Notes: generated by a model not told the origin, from the letters alone. A stretch of DNA of 64,000 nucleotides from Gemmatimonadota bacterium (GCA_025357945.1 JANYLJ010000011.1:124001-188000); one strand, 5' to 3'; positions 24,255 to 38,897 are shown, numbered from the stretch's first letter. Numbers and translations are program-made.

Positions 24255-24288
24255 CATGACCGCTCGCCTACCAGAAGACGGAGCCGCG

Positions 24289-27200
24289 ATGGCCGACCAG
24301 AACCGATCCGAAGGCGTTGATCGGCGGCAGTTCCTCAAGGTGCTCGGGACCACCGGCGCCGGCGCGGCGGTCCTCGGCGGCTGTTCCACCGACCGCGTGG
24401 CCAAGCTGGTGCCGTATATGGTCCAGTCAGAGGACCAGGTGCCGGGCATCGCGACGTGGTACGCCAGCACCTGCAGCGAGTGCAACAGCGGCTGCGGTCT
24501 GCACGTCAAGACGCGCGAAGGGCGCCCGATCAAGCTCGAAGGGAACCCCGAGCATCCCGTCAACGCCGGCAGGCTCTGCAGCCGCGGCCAGGCGGGATTG
24601 CAGGCGCTCTACAATCCGGATCGACTCGCCGGCCCGATGGCCAAGAACGCGGCGGGCAAGTGGGACGAGATCAAGTGGGACGACGCCATCGCGCGACTCG
24701 CCGCCAAGATTGGTGCAGCGCACGGTGAGCTTGCGGTGATCAACGGGTATGCCGCGTCCACCTTCTCGACCATGCTGACCAAGTGGACCACCGCGCTCGG
24801 TGGCGTGATCACGAATTTCGAGCCGTTCTCGCGTGAAGCGGAGCGCCTGGCCAACCAGAAGACGTGGGGCCGCACCGACCTGCCGGTCTACGACTTCGCG
24901 GCGGCCAAGTACATCGTGTCCTTCGGTGCCGACTTCCTCGAGACGTGGGGTTCGGTCGTCGAACAGCAACGCGGCTTCGCGGCGTCGCACGGCTTCCACG
25001 ACGGCGGCATGTCGCGCGCCGTGTTCGTCGGCCCCCGAATGTCGCTCACCGCGGCGAACGCCGACGAATGGCTCAACGTGCCCGCCGGATCCGAGACGCT
25101 CGTCGCGCTCGCGATGGCGCACGTGGTCGCCACGAAGCATGGCCACGCCCGGGCGGCCTCGCTGAGCGCCTATGCGCCGGAACAGGTGGCCGGGGACACC
25201 GGACTTACCGCGGCGCAGATCACGGTACTTGCCGAAGCATTTGCGGCGGCGGCCCCATCGCTGGCCGTCGCCGGCGGCGTGGGTGCGCAGCATCGCGGTT
25301 CGATCGAGCTCTGCCACGCCGTCAACCTGTTGAACGAAGTTGCCGGCAACATCGGCAAGACGGTCACGTTTGGCAGCGCCCCGGCCATGAGCGAGGGCGA
25401 TGGCAGGATCCAGCCGCTGTTCGACCGGATGGCAAAGGGCGAGTTCCAGGTCGTGCTGGTACACGACGCGAATCCGCTCTACACGCTGCCCAGGAGCGGC
25501 AAGTTTGCCGAGGCGTTCGCCAAGGTGCCGTTCAAGGTGTCGACGGCGGCGGTGCTCGACGAGACGGCGGCGGCGTGTGACCTGATCCTGCCGAACCTGC
25601 ATGGCCTGGAGCGCTGGGACGACCAGAACACCCGCAGCGGCGTCACCGGGATGATGCAGCCGGTCGTCGAGCCGGTGCGTGGCGGCATGCACACCGGCGA
25701 CGTCCTGCTCAAGGTCGCCAAGGTGGTCGGCGGCGCGGTGGCGAGCTTCAACGCCCCGTCGTTCGAGGCGCACCTCAAGGGCGAGTGGCAGAAGAACATC
25801 AAGGCGATCGACTTTGCCACCGCGATGTGCGAGGCGCTCGGCCGCGGTGGCATTTTCGCCGCGAGCACGCCGAACGAGCAGCCCAGGGCGGCCGCCGGGG
25901 CGGTCAGTTATACCAAGCCCACGTTCGATGGCGCCGGCGACTACGTCTTCATGCCGTACCCGTCGATGCTGTATCACGACGGCCGCGGTGCCAACAAGCC
26001 ATGGTTGCTCGAGAACCCGGACCCGATCACCAAGATCACCTGGCAGTCATGGGTGGAGGTGCATCCCGACACCGCCGCGAAGCTGGACGTGCGCGAGGGT
26101 GAGATTGTCGAGCTCACGTCGCCGCACGGAAAGCTCCGTGCCCAGGTGTACGTCTACGCCGGGGTGCGTCCCGACACGCTCGCGATGCCGCTCGGGCTCG
26201 GTCACACCGAGTATGGTCGGTACGCCAAGGGTCGCGGCGTCAACCCGCTCGACTTGCTCGGTGCCGCCGACGGTCAGGGATTCCTCCCCTACGTCGCCAC
26301 CAGGGTTTCGGTCGCCCGCACCGGTGACTATCAGAAGGTCGCCCGCGTCGATGGCACACCGCGACAGCTCGGACGCGGGATCATCCAGTCGATGCCGGTG
26401 GCGTACGCCGCGAAGGGGATGACACCCGAAGAGTCATACAAGGCGGCTGGCCGCCCGACCGCCGAGACGAACACCGAGCTCGAGCGCACCGCGATCGAGG
26501 GGTGGCACGAGAAGCAGATCGCAGCCAGCCAGCTCGGTAACTACGCTGACGCACCACATCCCAAGTGGGGGATGGCGGTCGACCTGTCGCGCTGCACCGG
26601 GTGTTCCGCCTGTGTGACGGCGTGCTACGCCGAGAACAACATTCCGACGGTGGGCGAGGAGCAGGTGTTCCGGCGGCGCGAGATGAGCTGGCTGCGGATC
26701 GAGCGCTACTGGGAGGGCGGCACCGATGGCGAGCCGTTGCAGGCACGCTTCGCCCCCGTGATGTGCCAGCATTGTGACAACGCGCCGTGCGAACCGGTCT
26801 GCCCGGTATACGCCGCGTATCACACGCCCGACGGGTTGAACGGCCAGGTCTACAACCGTTGCGTCGGCACGCGCTACTGCAGCAACAACTGCCCGTTCAA
26901 GGTGCGCTACTTCAACTGGCTCAAGTACAACGAGACGGCGTGGCCCGAGCCGCTCAACCTGCAGCTCAATCCCGACGTGGTCACCCGCTCCCGCGGCGTG
27001 ATGGAGAAGTGCACCTTCTGCATCCAGCGCATCCGCGGGGCGCAGCACACGGCCCGGCTGGAGGACCGCGACGTTCGCGACGGCGAGGTTGTCACCGCGT
27101 GCCAGCAGGGCTGCCCGTCGGGCGCGATCACGTTCGGCAACGTCAAGGATGCCGCGGCCGAGGTGGTGCAATGGAAACGCGATCACCGCGGGTACGTGAT

Positions 27201-27294
27201 GCTCGAGGAAACCAACGTCCGTCCGGCGGTGACCTACCTCGCCAAGGTGCTCAACATCGAGCCCGCGGCGTTCCACGGCGCGGAGGAACACTGA
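24289..27294 (+). CDS. actB: Alternative complex III, Mo-oxidoreductase-like iron-sulfur subunit
   Basis: 1001 aa from ATG 24289 (GGAG at 5 nt); ATG 24256 is possible but lacks a ribosome site. A Tat signal (DRRQFLKVLGTTGAGAAVLGGC) is followed by a MopB-like domain starting TCSECNSGCGLHVKTREGRP and ending near 730. In known ActB this domain has lost the molybdopterin. The C-terminal ferredoxin-like domain has four Cys groups: CTGCSACVTAC, CQHCDNAPCEPVC, CVGTRYCSNNCPF and CTFCIQRI...CQQGCPSG, for the electron wire to ActA. ActB is periplasmic and peripheral. Confidence 0.95.
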   Translation: MADQNRSEGVDRRQFLKVLGTTGAGAAVLGGCSTDRVAKLVPYMVQSEDQVPGIATWYASTCSECNSGCGLHVKTREGRPIKLEGNPEHPVNAGRLCSRGQAGLQALYNPDRLAGPMAKNAAGKWDEIKWDDAIARLAAKIGAAHGELAVINGYAASTFSTMLTKWTTALGGVITNFEPFSREAERLANQKTWGRTDLPVYDFAAAKYIVSFGADFLETWGSVVEQQRGFAASHGFHDGGMSRAVFVGPRMSLTAANADEWLNVPAGSETLVALAMAHVVATKHGHARAASLSAYAPEQVAGDTGLTAAQITVLAEAFAAAAPSLAVAGGVGAQHRGSIELCHAVNLLNEVAGNIGKTVTFGSAPAMSEGDGRIQPLFDRMAKGEFQVVLVHDANPLYTLPRSGKFAEAFAKVPFKVSTAAVLDETAAACDLILPNLHGLERWDDQNTRSGVTGMMQPVVEPVRGGMHTGDVLLKVAKVVGGAVASFNAPSFEAHLKGEWQKNIKAIDFATAMCEALGRGGIFAASTPNEQPRAAAGAVSYTKPTFDGAGDYVFMPYPSMLYHDGRGANKPWLLENPDPITKITWQSWVEVHPDTAAKLDVREGEIVELTSPHGKLRAQVYVYAGVRPDTLAMPLGLGHTEYGRYAKGRGVNPLDLLGAADGQGFLPYVATRVSVARTGDYQKVARVDGTPRQLGRGIIQSMPVAYAAKGMTPEESYKAAGRPTAETNTELERTAIEGWHEKQIAASQLGNYADAPHPKWGMAVDLSRCTGCSACVTACYAENNIPTVGEEQVFRRREMSWLRIERYWEGGTDGEPLQARFAPVMCQHCDNAPCEPVCPVYAAYHTPDGLNGQVYNRCVGTRYCSNNCPFKVRYFNWLKYNETAWPEPLNLQLNPDVVTRSRGVMEKCTFCIQRIRGAQHTARLEDRDVRDGEVVTACQQGCPSGAITFGNVKDAAAEVVQWKRDHRGYVMLEETNVRPAVTYLAKVLNIEPAAFHGAEEH

Positions 27295-27295
27295 G

Positions 27296-28654
27296 ATGGC
27301 CGTGATCGCTCACGACCCCAGCATGCCGACGCAGACGCACGCGGAAGTCACCCGCGACGTCATCCGGACCATCACCGAGAAGCCGACGCGCGGCTACTAT
27401 ATCCTCGCCGGCACGATGGCGTTCCTCACGCTGGTGATGTTCGGCACCCTTGGGGCGCTGCTCAAGTACGGCCTCGGTCTCGCCGGGTACTCGCCGCCGA
27501 TCATGTGGTCGGTGTACATCACGACGTTCGTCTTCTGGATCGGTATCGGCCACGCCGGCACGCTGATCTCGGCGATTCTCTACCTGTTCCGGTCGCGCTG
27601 GCGTACGGCGGTGTATCGCTCGACCGAGGCGATGACCGTGTTCGCCGTCATGACGGCCGCGCTCTTCCCGATCATCCACATCGGCCGCCAGTGGCTCTTC
27701 TACTGGCTGCTGCCGTATCCCAACCAGCGCTACCTCTGGCCCAACTTCAAGTCGCCGCTGATCTGGGACGTGTTTGCGATCTCGACCTACCTCACGGTGT
27801 CGTCAACGTTCCTGATGGTGGGCCTGGTGCCCGACATCGCCGCAGTGCGCGACCACGTCAGCGGCTGGAAGAAGAAGTTGTACGGCTGGCTCTCCCTGGG
27901 GTGGACCGGCGCCGACTCGCAGTGGCGGCACTACACGCGCGCCTATCTCTACCTCGCCGCACTCTGCACGCCGCTGGTGCTCTCGGTGCACTCGGTCGTC
28001 TCCTGGGACTTCGCGATGTCGATCGTTCCCGGCTGGCACGGCACGATCTTCGCGCCCTACTTCGTCGCCGGCGCCATCTATTCGGGTGTCGGCATGGTGA
28101 TGACGCTGATCATCCCGCTCCGCAAGGTGCTGCGGATCGAGCACATGATCACCGACTACCACTTCGACAACCTCGCCAAGCTCACGCTGCTGACCGGGTC
28201 GATCCTCTTCTACGCCTATGCGATGGAATACTTCGTCGCGTGGTACTCGGGGAACCCGTTTGAACAGATGACATTCTGGCGCCGCGCCTTCGGCCCGAAC
28301 TGGTGGGCCGGCTGGTCGATGATCATCTGCAACGCCTTCGTGTCGCAACTGCTCTGGTTCCCCAGGATTCGCACCAACCTCACGGCACTGTTCGTGATCT
28401 CGGTCTTCATCAACATCGGCATGTGGTTCGAGCGCTACGTGATCGTGGTCGGCTCGCTGGCGAACGACTACCTCCCGTATGTGTGGGGCCAGATCAACCC
28501 GACCTGGGCGGACTGGTGCATCCTCGCCGGCTCGTTCGGCTGGTTCGGACTCTGGTTCACGCTCTTCTACAAGAACTTCCCGATCGTCGCGATCCAGGAG
28601 ATCAAGGAAATGATCCCGATGCAGCGGCGCAGCGCCGCGGCCAGGGGGCACTGA
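27296..28654 (+). CDS. actC: Alternative complex III, NrfD-like quinol-binding membrane subunit
   Basis: 452 aa polytopic protein with about ten hydrophobic segments (for example residues 38-60, 70-95, 115-135). The PSRC/NrfD family fold binds menaquinol or ubiquinol. WSVYITTFVFWIGIGHAGTLISAIL and IIHIGRQWLFYW are typical, with a buried His and Asp (WDVFAISTYL). The ATG lies 1 nt after the actB stop and the gene overlaps actD by 1 nt (TGATG). Confidence 0.95.
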   Translation: MAVIAHDPSMPTQTHAEVTRDVIRTITEKPTRGYYILAGTMAFLTLVMFGTLGALLKYGLGLAGYSPPIMWSVYITTFVFWIGIGHAGTLISAILYLFRSRWRTAVYRSTEAMTVFAVMTAALFPIIHIGRQWLFYWLLPYPNQRYLWPNFKSPLIWDVFAISTYLTVSSTFLMVGLVPDIAAVRDHVSGWKKKLYGWLSLGWTGADSQWRHYTRAYLYLAALCTPLVLSVHSVVSWDFAMSIVPGWHGTIFAPYFVAGAIYSGVGMVMTLIIPLRKVLRIEHMITDYHFDNLAKLTLLTGSILFYAYAMEYFVAWYSGNPFEQMTFWRRAFGPNWWAGWSMIICNAFVSQLLWFPRIRTNLTALFVISVFINIGMWFERYVIVVGSLANDYLPYVWGQINPTWADWCILAGSFGWFGLWFTLFYKNFPIVAIQEIKEMIPMQRRSAAARGH

Positions 28655-29163
28655 TGGCAACCGCCATGTCGGGCGTACTGGCCGCGTTCGATCACATCGA
28701 CGCCGCCTGCGGCGCGATCCGCGAGCTGAAAGCCACCGGGCACCAGGACCTCACCGTCTACTCGGCCGCGCCCTACCATGAGCTCGAGGCGGCGATCGGC
28801 GATCCGGTGTCGCCGGTGCGTCTGTTCACGCTGATCGGCGGGCTGATTGGCTGCGCCGCCGGGTTCGGCGTCGCGATCTGGATGTCGCGTGACTGGCCGT
28901 TGCTGGTTGGTGGCAAGCCAATCGCCGCGATTCCGGCGTACGTGGTCATCGGCTTCGAACTGACCATCATGGTCGGCGCGTTGTCCACCGTCGCCGGCAT
29001 CATCATCCTGTCGATGATGAAGTCGCTCAAGGGGCGGCCGTACTCGCCACGGTTCAGCGACGACCAGATCGGCGTCTTCGTGCCGTGCCGGGCAGATCAG
29101 GCAGCGGGAGTCGAGATGCTGATGACACAGCATGGATCGGTGGCGGTGTCCCGTGATGCGTAA
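28654..29163 (+). CDS. actD: Alternative complex III subunit D (DUF3341)
   Basis: 169 aa with two central transmembrane segments (LFTLIGGLIGCAAGFGVAIW and YVVIGFELTIMVGALSTVAGII). The N-terminal part VLAAFDHIDAACGAIRELKATGHQDLTVYSAAP and the end FSDDQIGVFVPCR are characteristic of DUF3341/ActD, which packs against ActC. It overlaps actC by 1 nt and actE by 8 nt. Confidence 0.93.
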   Translation: MATAMSGVLAAFDHIDAACGAIRELKATGHQDLTVYSAAPYHELEAAIGDPVSPVRLFTLIGGLIGCAAGFGVAIWMSRDWPLLVGGKPIAAIPAYVVIGFELTIMVGALSTVAGIIILSMMKSLKGRPYSPRFSDDQIGVFVPCRADQAAGVEMLMTQHGSVAVSRDA

Positions 29164-29773
29164 GGCGATGCTCGCGATCGGGTTGCTCGGCCTCGGCGGC
29201 TGCAACTGGTGGTACAACGACGTGCCGTCACCGGACGACCTGATGCACAAGATTCCGTGGTTCGATCACATGATCGTGTCCAAGGCGATCCAGCCGTACC
29301 AGGGGAGCGACATGCCGCGAAACACTCCGATCGGCGCGGTACCGGTCGGCGGCGGCGAGGCCGACTGGCGCGCCGGGGATCCGCGCGCGCTGGTGTTCTT
29401 CTTCGACACGGTGGTGGCCAAGCGGCTGGTGCGTCCCGCGTTCACGCCGCGCCCCGATTCGCGCAGCGGCGACGAGCTGTACCACACGTATTGCGCGGTG
29501 TGTCATGGTCCCCAGGGCACCGGTGCCGCGGACGCGTCGGTCAAGGAGATGGCGGCGCCGTCCTTGCTGACCACGAAGGCGCGCGGCTACAACGACGGAT
29601 ACCTCTACAGCATGGTTCGCTACGGTCGCCTTCTCATGCCGCAATACGGTGACAAGATCGTTCGCATCGATGAGCGATGGGCAGTGGTGGATTATGTCCG
29701 ATCGCTCCAGGCCCGGTCACCCGCTCCGGCGCCAACACCGGCCGCCGCCGCGGTGAAGAAGGGGGCGCCCTGA
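29156..29773 (+). CDS. actE: Alternative complex III, monoheme cytochrome c lipoprotein
   Basis: 205 aa lipoprotein (lipobox LGLGGC; mature N-terminus CNWWYND). One heme site, YCAVCHGPQGTG, with a later Met (LMPQYGD) as likely axial ligand. The segment SKAIQPYQGSDMPRNTP is typical of ActE. ATG 29156 overlaps the actD end; GTG 29153 is equally possible. An Ala/Pro-rich tail ends the protein. It overlaps actF by 1 nt (TGATG). Confidence 0.94.
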   Translation: MRKAMLAIGLLGLGGCNWWYNDVPSPDDLMHKIPWFDHMIVSKAIQPYQGSDMPRNTPIGAVPVGGGEADWRAGDPRALVFFFDTVVAKRLVRPAFTPRPDSRSGDELYHTYCAVCHGPQGTGAADASVKEMAAPSLLTTKARGYNDGYLYSMVRYGRLLMPQYGDKIVRIDERWAVVDYVRSLQARSPAPAPTPAAAAVKKGAP

Positions 29774-31047
29774 TGTCGTTTGATGCCGCGACTGTCCGCG
29801 CTCGCCTGGTGGAGAAGAGCGTCAGCGCCAATTACAACACGTTCTTCGTCGGCGGCCTGGTGCTCGCCATCGCGGGTGCGGTGCTGTTCGTCCTCTCGGC
29901 CAACGCGACCGGTGTCCATCATCGCGCCTGGCAGGCGTTTCACGTCAACTGGATCTTCTGGACCGGGATCACCGGCGGGTCCATCGCGATCACCGCGGTG
30001 CACAAGTTGTCCGGGGCCAAGTGGTCCGGCGTCATCATCCGTCTCTCCCAGGCGACGGCCTTCTTCATCCCGGTGTCCCTCGTCGGTCTGCTCCTGATCA
30101 TGACCGTGGGCTACGACGACATCTACGGCAACATGGTCGCCTCGCTCGGCGGTCTGTCGGCGGGCAAGGCGCGGTGGTTGTCGCACTCCTGGATGGCGGT
30201 CCGCATGTTCGCCGCGTTGGGCCTTCTCTACGCCCTCGGGATCCGGATGATCCGCAGCGAGCTGCTCCCGGATCTGAACGACGTCAAGGCGAAGGTCACC
30301 GGTACGCGGCGCGACCGCTTTGACAAGATGCTGCTCGGCTACGATGAATCGGCAAATCAGAAGCGCCTCTTCCGGTCGGCCGCGATCTATGCGCCGCTCT
30401 ATGCCTTCGTCATGACGATCGTGGCGTTTGACGGAATCATGGCGCTGCAGCCCCACTGGTTCTCCAACCTGCTCGGCGGCTGGTACTTCATGGGCGCCTG
30501 GCTCGGCGCCTTGATGTTCCAGGCGCTGATGATGCTCTACGCCCGCAAGGCGGCAGGCCTCGACGAGTTCATCTCGCAGAAGCAGCGCCACGATCTCGGC
30601 AAGCTCTGCTTCGGCTTCACGATCTTCTGGACCTACCTCATGTGGGCCCAGTTCCTGGTGATCTGGTACGGTAACCTTCCCGAAGAAACCGGCTTCGTGT
30701 TCGCGCGCCTCTGGGGCCCGTGGCGTCCGATCGGCGCGGCGGTCGGCGCCGGCGTGTTCATTATTCCGTTCGCTGGCCTGCTTGGCGTCGCCCCGAAAAA
30801 GGCGCCGTTCACCCTGGGGCTGATCGCGACGATCTCCCTGGTCGCATTGTGGCTGGAGCGCTATCTGCTGGTCACGCCATCGGTGACGCTCGAAGCCGGC
30901 CCGGTATTCGGCCTGCCGGAACTGGGGCCGATCCTGCTCTTCGTCGGCCTGTTCCTGTTCTGCTACGCCCTCTTCGCGCGGACGTTCCCGATGGTGTCGC
31001 CGCGGCTGGCGATGATTACGTTGGAGCAGGAGGCAGCGCATCACTAG
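29773..31047 (+). CDS. actF: Alternative complex III, second polytopic membrane subunit
   Basis: 424 aa with about ten transmembrane segments, structurally related to ActC. HRAWQAFHVNWIFWTGITGGSIA, the VGYDDIYG loop and WAQFLVIWYGNLPEET are characteristic of ActF. The two large membrane subunits may form the proton path. It is the last act gene; a strong hairpin follows and no cytochrome oxidase genes come after it. Confidence 0.94.
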   Translation: MSFDAATVRARLVEKSVSANYNTFFVGGLVLAIAGAVLFVLSANATGVHHRAWQAFHVNWIFWTGITGGSIAITAVHKLSGAKWSGVIIRLSQATAFFIPVSLVGLLLIMTVGYDDIYGNMVASLGGLSAGKARWLSHSWMAVRMFAALGLLYALGIRMIRSELLPDLNDVKAKVTGTRRDRFDKMLLGYDESANQKRLFRSAAIYAPLYAFVMTIVAFDGIMALQPHWFSNLLGGWYFMGAWLGALMFQALMMLYARKAAGLDEFISQKQRHDLGKLCFGFTIFWTYLMWAQFLVIWYGNLPEETGFVFARLWGPWRPIGAAVGAGVFIIPFAGLLGVAPKKAPFTLGLIATISLVALWLERYLLVTPSVTLEAGPVFGLPELGPILLFVGLFLFCYALFARTFPMVSPRLAMITLEQEAAHH

Positions 31048-34176: not shown

Positions 34177-34635
34177 ATGCGTGTTACAGCGATGCTGGCC
34201 GGGGCGGCCTTGATGGTGGCAGCTTGCGGCGGGAAGAAGGACGCGGCGGCTTCGACCGACGCGACGACGACGCCGGCGACGACCGCAGCTACGACGACGG
34301 GCGCCACCCACACGATCGAGATGGTGATGGAGAGCGCGACCAGCTACAAGTTCAGCCCGGTAAACACGACGATCAAGGCGGGTGACGTCGTCATCTTCAA
34401 GAGCGTCTCGGGTCTTGCCCACGACGTCGCCTTCATCGACGACAGCATACCTGCCGGCGCCAAGGCGGTGCTGACAGCCGCCGTCACGGGCGGCCCGCAG
34501 GACATGGCCACCGCGATGACGCCGGAAGGTCAGTCGGTCTCGGTGTCGTTCGCCGGAGCGCCGGTCGGCGTCTACCACTTCTACTGCATCCCGCACGCGC
34601 CGATGAACATGCGCGGCTCGATTACGGTGCAGTAA
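34177..34635 (+). CDS. Plastocyanin-like blue copper lipoprotein
   Basis: 152 aa. Lipobox MVAACGG, then a Thr/Ala-rich linker, then a cupredoxin domain. The type 1 copper ligands are visible: His in GLAHDVAF, then Cys, His and Met in YCIPHAPMNMRG. KAGDVVIFKSVSG and VYHFYCIPH are typical of plastocyanin/pseudoazurin-like electron carriers. It could carry electrons from alternative complex III, but that link is inference from the 3-kb distance. A rho-independent terminator follows. Confidence 0.9.
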   Translation: MRVTAMLAGAALMVAACGGKKDAAASTDATTTPATTAATTTGATHTIEMVMESATSYKFSPVNTTIKAGDVVIFKSVSGLAHDVAFIDDSIPAGAKAVLTAAVTGGPQDMATAMTPEGQSVSVSFAGAPVGVYHFYCIPHAPMNMRGSITVQ

Positions 34636-34657: not shown

Positions 34658-34690
34658 AAGGGGCTCCGCGAAACGCCGAGCCCCTTTTTT
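34658..34690 (+). terminator. Rho-independent terminator after the copper protein
   Basis: AAGGGGCTC pairs with GAGCCCCTT, with loop CGCGAAACGCC, followed by a run of six T. This is a canonical strong terminator, and it also lies after the stop of the minus-strand ceramide operon. Confidence 0.9.
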
Positions 34691-34712: not shown

Positions 34713-35594
34713 CTAGCTCCGTCTCGTCACCACTCCCGCGACGACCATTCCCAGGATCACACCCGCGGCGCTGTCGATGACATAGTGCATCTGGCAGTAC
34801 ACGACGCCGACCGCGAGCAGTCCCGTGGGAATCACCATGACCAATCCCAGGCGCCGCGAGCCGCGCCACGCGCCAATCGTCGCCGCCACGGTCGCCGCCA
34901 CATGGGACGACGGGAACGCGGCGCCGAACGCACTGCCACCACTCAGTGCGGCGTATACCATGCGCGCTGGCAGGTTCGCCACAAACGCACCGCTGGGGCG
35001 CTCGAACTGGTAGTACGGTCCGGCAACCGGCATGAACAGGTAGAAGAGGTAACAGACCAGGTACGTCGCGAGCAGGCCGTTGAGGTAGCGTTCGAGCGCG
35101 TCGTTGCGGCGTTGCACCAGGAACACGATCATCGGCGTCACGATCAGCAGGTAGTACGAGAGGTACGCCGAGTGGAACGTCGCCGACCAGAAGGCGCTTG
35201 GATGCATGCGCCACCAGTCGCGGCTCGGTTGCATCCCGAACATCGCGAACTCCAACGCCTGGATCTGGTGATCCCACGTTGGCGCCGCTCCAAACCGGTT
35301 GAGCACATCGATCGCCGAGTACAGTCCGATCAGCAACGCGACGGGATAGATGCCGCGCAGGACACGCGCGAGCGGGGTCGGTGGCGCGTGTGCCACCAGC
35401 CACGCGAGCGCCGGGATCGCCAGGTGGGCGACGAGAACGCCCGGCACACCCTGCTGGTGGAGGCGGGTGAGGGCCAGCAACACGACGACGATGCCGTATA
35501 CCGCGAGCATCCGATCGACGAGACGCCAGTGCGGCCTGGCATTGCTGGTGTCGCGACTGACGTCCGACGGGCGCGTCAGGGGGGTCAGATCCAC
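34713..35594 (-). CDS. PAP2-family phosphotransferase, AUR1/inositol-phosphorylceramide-synthase-like
   Basis: 293 aa from GTG 35594, which overlaps the upstream stop by 10 nt; ATG 35660 would overlap more. About six transmembrane segments. The PAP2_3 (AUR1-like) catalytic residues are in AAFPSSHVAATVAA (His) and YCQMHYVIDSAAG (His-Asp), and WDHQIQALEFAMFG is the conserved early motif of this group. AUR1 enzymes move a phospho-head group to ceramide. As the last gene of a putative ceramide operon it probably makes a phosphosphingolipid (inference); a phosphatase role is the alternative. Confidence 0.8.
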   Translation of the reverse strand: MDLTPLTRPSDVSRDTSNARPHWRLVDRMLAVYGIVVVLLALTRLHQQGVPGVLVAHLAIPALAWLVAHAPPTPLARVLRGIYPVALLIGLYSAIDVLNRFGAAPTWDHQIQALEFAMFGMQPSRDWWRMHPSAFWSATFHSAYLSYYLLIVTPMIVFLVQRRNDALERYLNGLLATYLVCYLFYLFMPVAGPYYQFERPSGAFVANLPARMVYAALSGGSAFGAAFPSSHVAATVAATIGAWRGSRRLGLVMVIPTGLLAVGVVYCQMHYVIDSAAGVILGMVVAGVVTRRS

Positions 35595-36559
35595 CGCTCC
35601 GCGCGATACCACGCGCCGGTATCGGCGATCCCGCGCTCCAGGTTCCACGTGGGTTGCCACCCGGTCGCGCGCATGAACGGCGACGGATCAGCGGTCCAGG
35701 CCGCCTGGTAGAACTCGTGCACCTTGTCCGGGTGGAGGATTGTTCGCCGGTGGCGGACCTCCGCCCAGGTCCCCGTGATCGTCAGCGCGATTCGCGCCGC
35801 CCACTTGGGGATCGGCAGCCGGAGCACCGAACGCTGCATCTGGAGCGCGATGCCGCGCATCAGGTCCGCCCCCGTGGTGATCTCCGGATGATTCACGTAG
35901 AAGACCTCGCCAACAACGTCGGCCGCGCTGCCTGCAGCGACGATTGCATCGGCGAGGTCAGCCACGTGGATGAGCGAGATTTCCATCGAGCCGTCGCCGA
36001 ACATCGGCGCGAGACCCCAGCGCGCGGCCATGAACAGGGGCAGGAGTCCTTCGCGATCGCGCGGCCCGTACACCACCGGCGGCCGGACGACCGTCCACGG
36101 AACCGACAGCGCGGCGAGTTCCCGCTCGCCGGCGAGCTTGCTTCGGCCGTACATCGTAACCGGGTGATCGTCTCCGTCGGCGACCTTTGGCGTGCCGCGG
36201 CGCGCCGGCCCCCCCGCCGCCATCGAGGAGATCAGGACCAGGCGCGGCGCCGCCGCCTCGGCCGCGCAGGCCTCCGCCACGCGACGTGTCCCGTCGCGGT
36301 TCGCGGCCATCAGGTCGGCTTCACTCGCCGCGCCGAGCAACCCCGCCACGTGATACACCACCTGTTGTCCACGTACCGCCTCGGCGATTGCCTTCGTGGC
36401 GGCGAGGTCGCCCACGACCAGGCGCACGCCGCGTTCCGCGAGCGACATCGCCCCGGCCGATGAACGAACGAGCGCGGTGACGGTGTCACCGCGCTCGAGC
36501 AGGCGATCGACGAGGTGACCGCCCACGAAACCGGTCGCCCCGGTGACCAGCACGTTCAT
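35585..36559 (-). CDS. Ceramide-reductase-like extended SDR (CerR-like)
   Basis: 324 aa from ATG 36559, whose ATGA overlaps the upstream stop. The Rossmann motif VTGATGFVGGHLVDRLLERG starts at residue 4; the catalytic Tyr-Lys are in TMYGRSKLAGE. It is an extended SDR of the 3-beta-HSD/epimerase group. In Caulobacter a similar epimerase-annotated protein (CerR) reduces 3-ketoceramide, and the gene order here, after an SPT-like and a GNAT-like gene, matches that pathway. Assignment rests on context plus family. Confidence 0.75.
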   Translation of the reverse strand: MNVLVTGATGFVGGHLVDRLLERGDTVTALVRSSAGAMSLAERGVRLVVGDLAATKAIAEAVRGQQVVYHVAGLLGAASEADLMAANRDGTRRVAEACAAEAAAPRLVLISSMAAGGPARRGTPKVADGDDHPVTMYGRSKLAGERELAALSVPWTVVRPPVVYGPRDREGLLPLFMAARWGLAPMFGDGSMEISLIHVADLADAIVAAGSAADVVGEVFYVNHPEITTGADLMRGIALQMQRSVLRLPIPKWAARIALTITGTWAEVRHRRTILHPDKVHEFYQAAWTADPSPFMRATGWQPTWNLERGIADTGAWYRAERWI

Positions 36560-37692
36560 GTGGGACGGTCGAGAATGCGGAACGTCTGATACGGCGTGAA
36601 GCCGGCCTTGCTGAGGCCCTGGATGATGCCGACGTTGTCCTCGAGCAGCCAGCTCGCCTCTCCCCAGCCCGCGCCGCGCTCGCCCGCCTTGGTCCACAGC
36701 CAGTGGTACAGTGCGGAGTCGATGCCCTTGCCACGCCATTCGGGCAGCACGCCGAGCAGCAGCACGCGAGTCCGGGCCAGCTTCTTCATCTTGAGCTTGT
36801 ACATCATCGTCAGCGACGCCGGAAACATGCGGCCGTTGCGATTGTTGCGGAGCAACTCGTTGAGGTCGGGCAGGGCGAGGCCGAATGCGATCGGCTTGCC
36901 GTCCTGCTCCACAAACGGCACCAGCTCGGGAATCACGACCGGCTTGAACGCCTTGGCCAGCGCGTCAATCTCGGCGTCGGTCATCGGGATGAAGCCCCAG
37001 TTGTCTTCCCAACAGTCGTTGTACAGCTGCTTCACCAGCTCTACCTCGGCCGCAAATCGCTTCATGTTGAGCGGCCGGATGGTGATGCCGTAGCGCTGCT
37101 TGAGGAGCCTGACCGCGCGCTCGGTCCGCTCGGGCGGCTTGACCGGGGCCAGGAGCGACCCGCCCTGCAGTGCCACGAGGTCCTTCGCCTTCTTGAAGCC
37201 GGCGGTTTCCATCAGCGTGAGGTAATACGGCGGGTTGTGCGGCATCATGATCGAATTCGGCATGTCGAAGCCGGCGATCAGCAGCCCGCACTCGTCATTC
37301 ACCGAGAACGACATCGGACCGCGCAGCGTGTCGAGCCCGCGCGCCTTGACCCACTCGCTCGCCGTATCGAACAGCGCCGCGGCGACCTCGAAGTCGTTGA
37401 TGCACTCCCAGAAGCCGAAGAAGCCGACGTTGTCCTTGTGGTACTCATTGTGCAGGACGTTGTGGATGGCGGCGATGCGACCGACCACTTCGCCATTCCG
37501 TTCGGCGATGAAGTAGTCGGCCTCGGCGTGTTGAAAGAACGGATTGTGCTTGCGGTCGAGGAGCTTCTTCACTTCGGCGCGAAACGGCGGGACCCAATTG
37601 AGGTCCCGCCGGTGCAGCCGGTAGGGCAGGTCGATGAACCGCGCCAGATCCCTGGCCGTCTCGACGCGCCGGATCGCCGGCGCGTTGCTCAG
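36556..37692 (-). CDS. GNAT-fold acyltransferase, bacterial ceramide synthase-like (bCerS)
   Basis: 378 aa if started at CTG 37692, which overlaps the TGA of the upstream gene (CTGA). No ATG, GTG or TTG lies near the expected N-terminus; in-frame ATGs exist only deep in the previous gene. The protein begins APAIRRVETARDLARFIDLPYRLHRRDLNWVPPFR, typical of a two-lobed ~370-aa GNAT group. The C-terminal GNAT lobe shows LLLGVLPEWRGKGIDSALYHWLW (acyl-CoA site) and ASWLLEDNVGII. Caulobacter bCerS, which acylates 3-ketosphinganine, is of this type. Cytoplasmic. Confidence 0.78.
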   Translation of the reverse strand: MSNAPAIRRVETARDLARFIDLPYRLHRRDLNWVPPFRAEVKKLLDRKHNPFFQHAEADYFIAERNGEVVGRIAAIHNVLHNEYHKDNVGFFGFWECINDFEVAAALFDTASEWVKARGLDTLRGPMSFSVNDECGLLIAGFDMPNSIMMPHNPPYYLTLMETAGFKKAKDLVALQGGSLLAPVKPPERTERAVRLLKQRYGITIRPLNMKRFAAEVELVKQLYNDCWEDNWGFIPMTDAEIDALAKAFKPVVIPELVPFVEQDGKPIAFGLALPDLNELLRNNRNGRMFPASLTMMYKLKMKKLARTRVLLLGVLPEWRGKGIDSALYHWLWTKAGERGAGWGEASWLLEDNVGIIQGLSKAGFTPYQTFRILDRPT

Positions 37693-38897
37693 ATGACCCC
37701 CAACTCCTTGCCGATGCGGCCGAACGCCTCGAGCGCGAAGTCGATCTGGGCCGCCGTGTGGGTCGCCATCACGCTGTTGCGCAGCCGACATTGCGACGGT
37801 GGCACCGCCGGCGGGCACACGGGGTTGGTGAACACGCCCTCATCGAACAGCTTCCGCCAGAACAGGAAGGTCTTCTCGAGCGGCCCGATCAGCACCGGAA
37901 CGATCGGCGATTGCGTCGGCCCGATATCGAACCCAAGCGAACGGAAACCGTCCTGCAGTCGCTTGGCATTCTGCCACAGTGCCGGACGGCGCTCCGGTTC
38001 CTGCTGCATCACCTCGAGCGCGGCCAGCACGCCGGCGGTGTTCGCCGGCGGCAGCGACGCGGTGAAGATGAACGGCCGCGAGTGATGCTTGAGGAAATGG
38101 ATCACCGATTCGTCGGCAGCGAGGAAGCCGCCGACCGAGGCGAGCGACTTGGAGAACGTGCCCGCGATGATGTCGATATCTGCCTGCATGCCGAAGTGAC
38201 CGCCGGTGCCCTCACCGCGGGGCCCAAGGACGCCAAGGGCGTGCGCGTCGTCGACCACCAGCGCCGCCCCGAACTTGCGTGCGATCCGCACCAGCTCGGG
38301 GATGTTGGCGATGTCGCCTTCCATCGAGTAGATGCCGTCAACCACGATCATGGTGCCCTTGCCACTGGTATTGCGTTCCAGCTGAAAGGTCAGGTGCGCC
38401 ATGTCGTCGTGGTTGAACCGCTCGCACTTGCCGAACGCGAGTTTGGCCCCGTCGACGATGCAGGCGTGATCGAGCTTGTCGAGGTAGACCGTCTCGTTGC
38501 GACCGAGGATGCCGGAGATCAGGCCGAGGTTTGCACCGTATCCGGTCGAGAACACCATGCATGCTTCCTTGCCCAGAAACTCGGCCAAGGCGCTCTCGAG
38601 CCGTTCATGGAGGTCGAGCGAACCGTTCAGGAAGCGAGAGCCAGTGCACCCCGACCCATACCGGTGCAGGGCCTTGGCGGCCGCTTCGAGTACCTTGGGG
38701 TGGTGGGTCAGCCCGAGGTAGTTGTTCGAGCCCAGCATCAGCCGCTTCTTGCCTTCAATCACGACGTCGGTGTCGTCCGACTCCGAGATGGCTTTGAAAT
38801 AGGGATAGAGGCCGGCAGCTTGCACTTCACGCGCGGCGGTAAAATTCCGGCACTTGTCGAAGAGTGCCACCTGGGACTGGAGCGTGTCTGTCGCCAC
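37689..38897 (-). CDS. Serine palmitoyltransferase-like alpha-oxoamine synthase
   Basis: 402 aa PLP enzyme of the AONS/KBL/SPT family. LMLGSNNYLGLTHHPKVLEAA, CTGSRFLNGSLDLHERLE, FSTGYGANLG, LDKLDHACIVDG, VVDGIYSMEGD, VVDDAHALGVLG and GTFSKSLASVGGF (PLP Lys in TFSKS) are all present. Biotin (BioF) and threonine (Kbl) enzymes share these motifs, but the sequence GLYPYFKAISESDDTDVVIEGKKRLMLG and the downstream ceramide-type genes favour serine palmitoyltransferase, which condenses L-serine with an acyl thioester. It leads the four-gene operon and is divergent from the M6 peptidase. Confidence 0.85.
   Translation of the reverse strand: MATDTLQSQVALFDKCRNFTAAREVQAAGLYPYFKAISESDDTDVVIEGKKRLMLGSNNYLGLTHHPKVLEAAAKALHRYGSGCTGSRFLNGSLDLHERLESALAEFLGKEACMVFSTGYGANLGLISGILGRNETVYLDKLDHACIVDGAKLAFGKCERFNHDDMAHLTFQLERNTSGKGTMIVVDGIYSMEGDIANIPELVRIARKFGAALVVDDAHALGVLGPRGEGTGGHFGMQADIDIIAGTFSKSLASVGGFLAADESVIHFLKHHSRPFIFTASLPPANTAGVLAALEVMQQEPERRPALWQNAKRLQDGFRSLGFDIGPTQSPIVPVLIGPLEKTFLFWRKLFDEGVFTNPVCPPAVPPSQCRLRNSVMATHTAAQIDFALEAFGRIGKELGVI

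Follow-up and report, generated by a model that had tools for sequence, protein, structure and literature searches.

Gene layout of the locus

The window, a stretch of 64,000 nucleotides from a Gemmatimonadota genome (3.0 Mb, 99.8% complete), harbors four minus-strand genes at positions 34713-38897, each of which overlaps the next. The first one (37689..38897; 402 aa, GTG start) is assigned to a serine palmitoyltransferase (SPT) by profile scores, structure alignment and a phylogenetic tree. It is followed by the gene of a GNAT-fold N-acyltransferase (36556..37692; 378 aa, CTG start), a bCerS/YghO homologue according to its similarity to YghO and its predicted fold, and by that of an extended, epimerase-type SDR (35585..36559; 324 aa, ATG start), whose assignment as a CerR homologue is based on its similarity to the CerR counterpart of E. 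coli BL21 and on its motifs. The last gene (34713..35594; 293 aa, GTG start) encodes an AUR1/IPC-synthase-like membrane phosphotransferase of the PAP2_3 type, as judged from a PF14378 match, the predicted fold and the invariant residues His231, His270 and Asp274. The SPT stop codon (TGA) overlaps the GNAT start codon (CTG) within the tetranucleotide CTGA (37689..37692), which is read from the sequence and from the conservation of CTG or TTG at this site. The sequence further displays an ATGA overlap of the GNAT stop and the SDR start (36556..36559) and a 10-nt overlap of the SDR end and the PAP2 start (35585..35594), all on the minus strand. A preliminary description of the locus had listed four reading frames with overlaps of 4, 4 and 10 nt, which we confirmed from the sequence, with the qualification that the first 4-nt overlap requires CTG as the GNAT start. 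The four-gene layout does not reflect chance, because the same order recurs in most of the Gemmatimonadota loci examined.

The operon converges with a cupredoxin gene on the plus strand (34177-34635), and a G+C-rich hairpin with a T-run on its plus-strand side (34658..34686; fold z -2.8) is located between the cupredoxin and PAP2 genes. The hairpin is the probable shared terminator of both genes; it was not picked up by a consensus terminator scan. Upstream, the operon is flanked by a divergent M6-peptidase gene, and a promoter scan found no sigma-70 promoter. Elsewhere in the window (24256-31047, plus strand), genes for a molybdopterin/Fe-S protein, NrfD and more membrane proteins are ordered like an alternative complex III cluster.

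It is very likely that the operon encodes a ceramide pathway. The SPT would form 3-ketosphinganine by condensation of L-serine with an acyl thioester, the GNAT protein would N-acylate this product (or sphinganine), and the SDR would reduce the 3-keto group, resulting in dihydroceramide. The PAP2_3 protein is proposed to attach a phospho-head group, taken from a glycerophospholipid, to the 1-hydroxyl of the ceramide via its His-His-Asp active site, and the most likely donor, phosphatidylinositol, would provide a phosphoinositol head group. We infer the substrates, the reaction order and co-transcription, and conclude that the four genes likely constitute one transcription unit for building a phosphosphingolipid, whose head group is most likely phosphoinositol.

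The PAP2 protein and its candidate head group

The operon PAP2 protein matches PF14378 (PAP2_3) with an E-value of 8e-17, and it is the best of three PAP2_3 matches in the genome and the sole one that spans the whole model. A Foldseek search of the PDB with its AlphaFold2 model (pLDDT 90) retrieved two significant matches, namely, a ceramide-containing IPC synthase structure (9vj4; TM 0.64) and the yeast Aur1-Kei1 complex (9ivc; TM 0.63), and both alignments run end to end over about 290 columns, documenting a common full-length fold at 15-16% identity. The fold matches to LpxE (TM 0.39), SMSr (TM 0.36, the fifth match) and PgpB-type enzymes are much lower, and those to LpxE and PgpB are partial. 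His231, His270 and Asp274 are invariant in 24/24 sequences, including those of Eisenbacteria and Latescibacterota, and IPC synthase and Aur1 possess a His-His-Asp catalytic arrangement. By its modelled fold, the protein is thus an AUR1/IPC-synthase-like member of PAP2_3, and the corresponding call of the preliminary description is borne out by the Pfam match, the full-length fold and the invariant triad. At the sequence level it falls outside the curated phosphoinositol dihydroceramide synthase family of the BT_1522 type (NF052609; 15 bits and E 0.012 versus a cut-off of 480 bits). None of the 21 genomes of relatives contains an NF052609 match over the cut-off, and the best member of the PAP2 family reaches 6e-4 against the curated IPC synthase model.

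The genome provides candidate genes for an inositol donor. A PIP-synthase-type CDP-alcohol phosphatidyltransferase (157 bits versus a cut-off of 170 for the PIP synthase model) is directly followed by myo-inositol-1-phosphate synthase (MIPS), and this pair (L070 6372-8333, contig C18) is located on the same contig as the operon at a distance of about 50 kb. The corresponding activities feed the AUR1-like BT_1522 in Bacteroides thetaiotaomicron (PMC9246714). The adjoining position of the two genes on the operon's contig makes phosphoinositol the likeliest head group, and we give this assignment roughly an even chance. MIPS is found in 38/41 genomes including relatives without the operon, so that the link between inositol and the operon is not specific.

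It is rather unlikely, yet the strongest alternative, that the operon makes ceramide and the PAP2 protein transfers another head group such as phosphoethanolamine or phosphoglycerol, comparable to the PE- or phosphoglycerol-dihydroceramides of Bacteroidota. The AUR1/sphingomyelin-synthase-type fold is used with several donors, and SMSr is among the fold matches. The occurrence of MIPS irrespective of the operon and the missing sequence-level match to the curated IPC synthase point in the same direction. The PAP2 fold is, however, clearly closest to two inositol-specific enzymes, and the adjacency of the MIPS and PIP synthase genes on the same contig likewise argues for phosphoinositol.

The distribution of the PAP2 gene bears on its role in the pathway. 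Among 150 genomes drawn across the phylum Gemmatimonadota, GNAT is present in 77 and PAP2 in 63; 62 genomes contain both, 15 only GNAT, a single one only PAP2 and 72 neither (Fisher p 2e-26, with genomes that are not independent). GNAT and PAP2 are located on one contig within 12 kb in 51 of the 62 genomes with both genes, and on the same strand with an SDR-sized gap in 40 of them, a layout defined by gap size rather than by gene-by-gene identity. The co-occurrence and the shared contig and strand layout tie PAP2 to the ceramide genes and identify it as more than a chance neighbor. The 15 genomes with GNAT and without the PAP2 enzyme include G067, G098, G106 and G119.

A head-group transferase that acts on the operon's ceramide is the probable function of the PAP2 protein. 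The alternative of a co-transcribed lipid phosphatase, acting on ceramide-1-phosphate, lipid A or undecaprenyl pyrophosphate, would leave a plain ceramide or one capped elsewhere, and we regard it as improbable. Members of the PAP2 family show weak profile matches to UppP and LpxE models, and the PDB sequence search returned LpxE/YodM only, with LpxE as the best match (E 0.0066), but these sequence matches cover the shared catalytic motifs alone, whereas the full-length fold favors Aur1 and IPC synthase over LpxE (TM 0.63-0.64 versus 0.39). The sequence PVAGPYY, at what we take to be the expected site of the phosphatase C1 motif, lacks the Lys/Arg that phosphatases presumably carry there. The near-strict co-occurrence with the ceramide genes also speaks against a phosphatase.

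The predicted ceramide-forming enzymes

For our comparisons, the Caulobacter proteins CC_1154 and CC_1164 (CerR) were replaced by their equivalents in BL21 according to PMC9386255. This study assigns yghO (ECD_02850) to CC_1154, which is among the five genes that Caulobacter needs for ceramide formation. In Pfam, the GNAT protein yields no more than a generic Acetyltransf_1 match, and a PDB sequence search with it found nothing useful. It is 34% identical to BL21 YghO over 376 aa, i.e., its full length (E 2e-72), it is the only match when YghO is queried against the source genome, and its structure is predicted as a tandem-GNAT fold (pLDDT 91). The protein is thus a full-length bCerS/YghO homologue and a predicted ceramide synthase, as proposed previously.

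The candidate start codon of the GNAT gene is the CTG of the CTGA overlap (37692-37690). There is no ATG, GTG or TTG at the GNAT/SPT overlap, and the nearest canonical in-frame alternatives upstream, an ATG at a distance of 99 nt and a GTG at 126 nt, are located within the SPT gene. The comparison of 51 in-phase loci, a few of which represent the same genome twice, revealed CTG (41) or TTG (10) as the overlap codon and ATG or GTG in none of them. An upstream ATG or GTG start was rejected, since seven of these 51 loci have no canonical start codon in the whole interval from the preceding in-frame stop to 30 nt beyond the CTG. Moreover, GNAT homologues with an ATG start begin within a few residues of the CTG position. 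The alternation of C and T in the start codon also tracks the wobble base of the last SPT codon (Ile or Val). Translation of the GNAT gene very likely initiates at the conserved CTG, as far as sequence comparison can tell, and gene callers restricted to ATG, GTG and TTG would mis-start or truncate such a gene.

The SDR shares 30% identity with the BL21 CerR counterpart (E 2e-33), a value that would be weak by itself, because SDRs form a very large superfamily. In the reverse search of the source genome, the operon SDR is the best match (1.3e-26), followed by one of 1e-14 that covers only 99 residues. GxxGFVG and YxxxK motifs are present, and the protein belongs to the extended (epimerase-type) SDRs, for which reason classical SDRs resembling TSC10, e.g., BT_0972, were rejected as its counterpart. 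These results support the proposed resemblance to CerR, and the location next to SPT and bCerS is in agreement with a predicted ketoreductase role of this CerR homologue. CerR of Caulobacter is periplasmic; the SDR reading frame begins directly with MNVLVTGATGFVGG, and inspection of the N-terminus by eye revealed no obvious signal peptide.

The first enzyme matches Aminotran_1_2 in Pfam, and its NCBIfam ranking is headed by the CFB-type SPT model NF047600 with 526 bits (below the equivalog cut-off of 640 bits), followed by bioF (384) and two Kbl models (374 and 316). Among solved structures, it is closest to the Sphingobacterium-type SPTs (427 bits, 388 residues aligned), and H144 and K250, which we assume to be the stacking histidine and the PLP lysine, align with the PLP site of Sphingobacterium SPT. 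In the phylogenetic tree, the protein groups with the SPTs of BL21 (42% identity), Roseomonas and others with a support of 100/100, and a branch of 2.65 lies between it and Kbl. We conclude that the enzyme is a Bacteroidota-type serine palmitoyltransferase with a predicted activity in serine condensation, and its earlier placement in the AONS/SPT family has thus been substantiated.

The use of another amino acid, i.e., cysteate as in sulfonolipids or alanine and glycine for 1-deoxy bases, would result in a capnine-like or deoxy lipid, and it is very improbable. Cysteate fatty acyltransferase belongs to the same superfamily, but its structure (28eh) scores 262 bits compared with 427 bits for the serine-using Sphingobacterium enzyme, on which grounds a cysteate acyltransferase was rejected; furthermore, a 1-deoxy or sulfonate base would offer no 1-hydroxyl to the operon's own PAP2 transferase. 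An identity of the first gene as bioF or kbl, in an operon unrelated to sphingolipids, as its membership of the BioF/Kbl/SPT superfamily and the lack of a bioF seen elsewhere in the genome might suggest, can practically be dismissed given the far higher SPT scores, the distance to Kbl in the tree, the conserved ceramide genes beside it and the presence of Kbl elsewhere in the genome. The latter is the sole other AONS-superfamily enzyme of the genome and exceeds the cut-off of one of the two glycine C-acetyltransferase (Kbl) models. No gene of the genome scores above the bioB cut-off; the organism therefore looks biotin-auxotrophic, and there is no biotin pathway for a BioF to serve. The preliminary description had named a best match to BioF or Kbl, missing biotin or threonine genes and dissimilar GNAT and SDR proteins as grounds for abandoning the sphingolipid reading, and this combination was not found. 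The Kbl gene belongs to a probable threonine dehydrogenase-Kbl pair (L061 8840-10365, contig C49), in which the end of the preceding dehydrogenase was recognized by eye.

Distribution and comparison with known systems

The order SPT-GNAT-SDR-PAP2 recurs in close and family-level relatives, mostly with overlapping or nearly overlapping genes. All four genes are found in this order in 21/24 named Gemmatimonadota loci (L071-L094), while L080, L086 and L091 contain the first three only, two of them (L086, L091) being cut by contig ends. The complete set is also present in an Eisenbacteria locus (L144), whereas Ignavibacteria, Bacteroidota and others mostly exhibit SPT-GNAT with a divergent SDR and without PAP2. 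We tentatively propose, at somewhat less than even chances, a phylum-wide and possibly ancestral operon for the synthesis of inositol-phosphorylceramide from serine, whose IPC synthase would represent a lineage separate from the BT_1522 family and whose ceramide synthase would be translated from a conserved CTG start that overlaps the SPT stop codon. The original reading as a ceramide/sphingolipid operon is largely supported, as the SPT, GNAT, SDR and PAP2 assignments each passed a test, and the head group is inferred.

The same three enzyme families are known from Caulobacter crescentus (spt, cerR and bCerS; CC_1162, CC_1164, CC_1154) and from the yghO-aasR-cerR-acpR-spt gene cluster of E. 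coli BL21 (PMC9386255, PMC11087976, PMC11324152). Both organisms have a dedicated ACP and acyl-ACP synthetase and carry cerS in a separate operon, whereas here cerS is flanked by spt and cerR, which it overlaps at either end, and the operon contains neither a dedicated ACP nor an acyl-ACP synthetase (AasR). The head-group genes of Caulobacter encode a ceramide kinase and the CPG/CPG2 pathway; here an AUR1-like gene follows cerR. Bacteroides thetaiotaomicron possesses a PAP2/AUR1-like PI-dihydroceramide synthase, a PIP synthase and MIPS (BT_1522-BT_1526; PMC9246714), and all three kinds of enzymes also occur in the genome investigated here. In Bacteroides, the IPC synthase gene is a neighbor of the PIP synthase and MIPS genes and distant from SPT, whereas in our case it is part of the SPT operon and the PIP synthase-MIPS pair is located about 50 kb away.

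Ceramide genes have been reported from metagenomes of about 40 phyla, often clustered, and the Spt-bCerS-CerR clusters represent the same three-gene ceramide module (PMC11334938); the main text of that study mentions neither Gemmatimonadota nor an operon nor a PAP2 head-group gene. The arrangement had initially been called striking. This holds for cerS within the operon together with a head-group-type gene, which is uncommon, but not for the clustering of the three ceramide genes, which was already described. The novelty is the combination of spt, cerS, cerR and a head-group-type enzyme in one overlapping operon. According to a published view, cerS is always located in a separate operon from the de novo genes, and a salvage role has been deduced from this separation (PMC11324152). 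The operon described here and a Streptomyces plasmid cluster (L065) argue against this separation as a general rule, and the proposed pathway, if true, would contradict this published view.

No report of sphingolipid production in Gemmatimonadota was found in the open-licence literature. If the proposed pathway is correct, a widespread phylum without reported sphingolipids would make capped ones, encoded by a one-operon pathway that could be moved as a whole into a laboratory host, and AUR1-like head-group enzymes would comprise a second bacterial lineage. Gemmatimonadota would also become a candidate bacterial source for the ceramides of soil lipidomes, which have mostly been discussed as fungal (PMC9969633), and a conserved CTG-started gene would be mis-called by annotation pipelines.

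Related gene clusters carry different proteins downstream of the SDR. On plasmid 1 of the actinobacterium Rubrobacter radiotolerans (L062 7701-13293), SPT-GNAT-SDR is followed by an LTA-synthase-family (sulfatase-fold) protein, possibly another ceramide head-group transferase. The four-gene order of Candidatus Eisenbacteria (L144 11438-14380) also precedes a sulfatase/phosphodiesterase-fold protein. On a plasmid of Streptomyces sp. NBC_01001 (L065 6748-11274), SPT, GNAT and SDR are joined by 4-nt overlaps and followed by a condensation-domain protein, which suggests a modified sphingolipid natural product.
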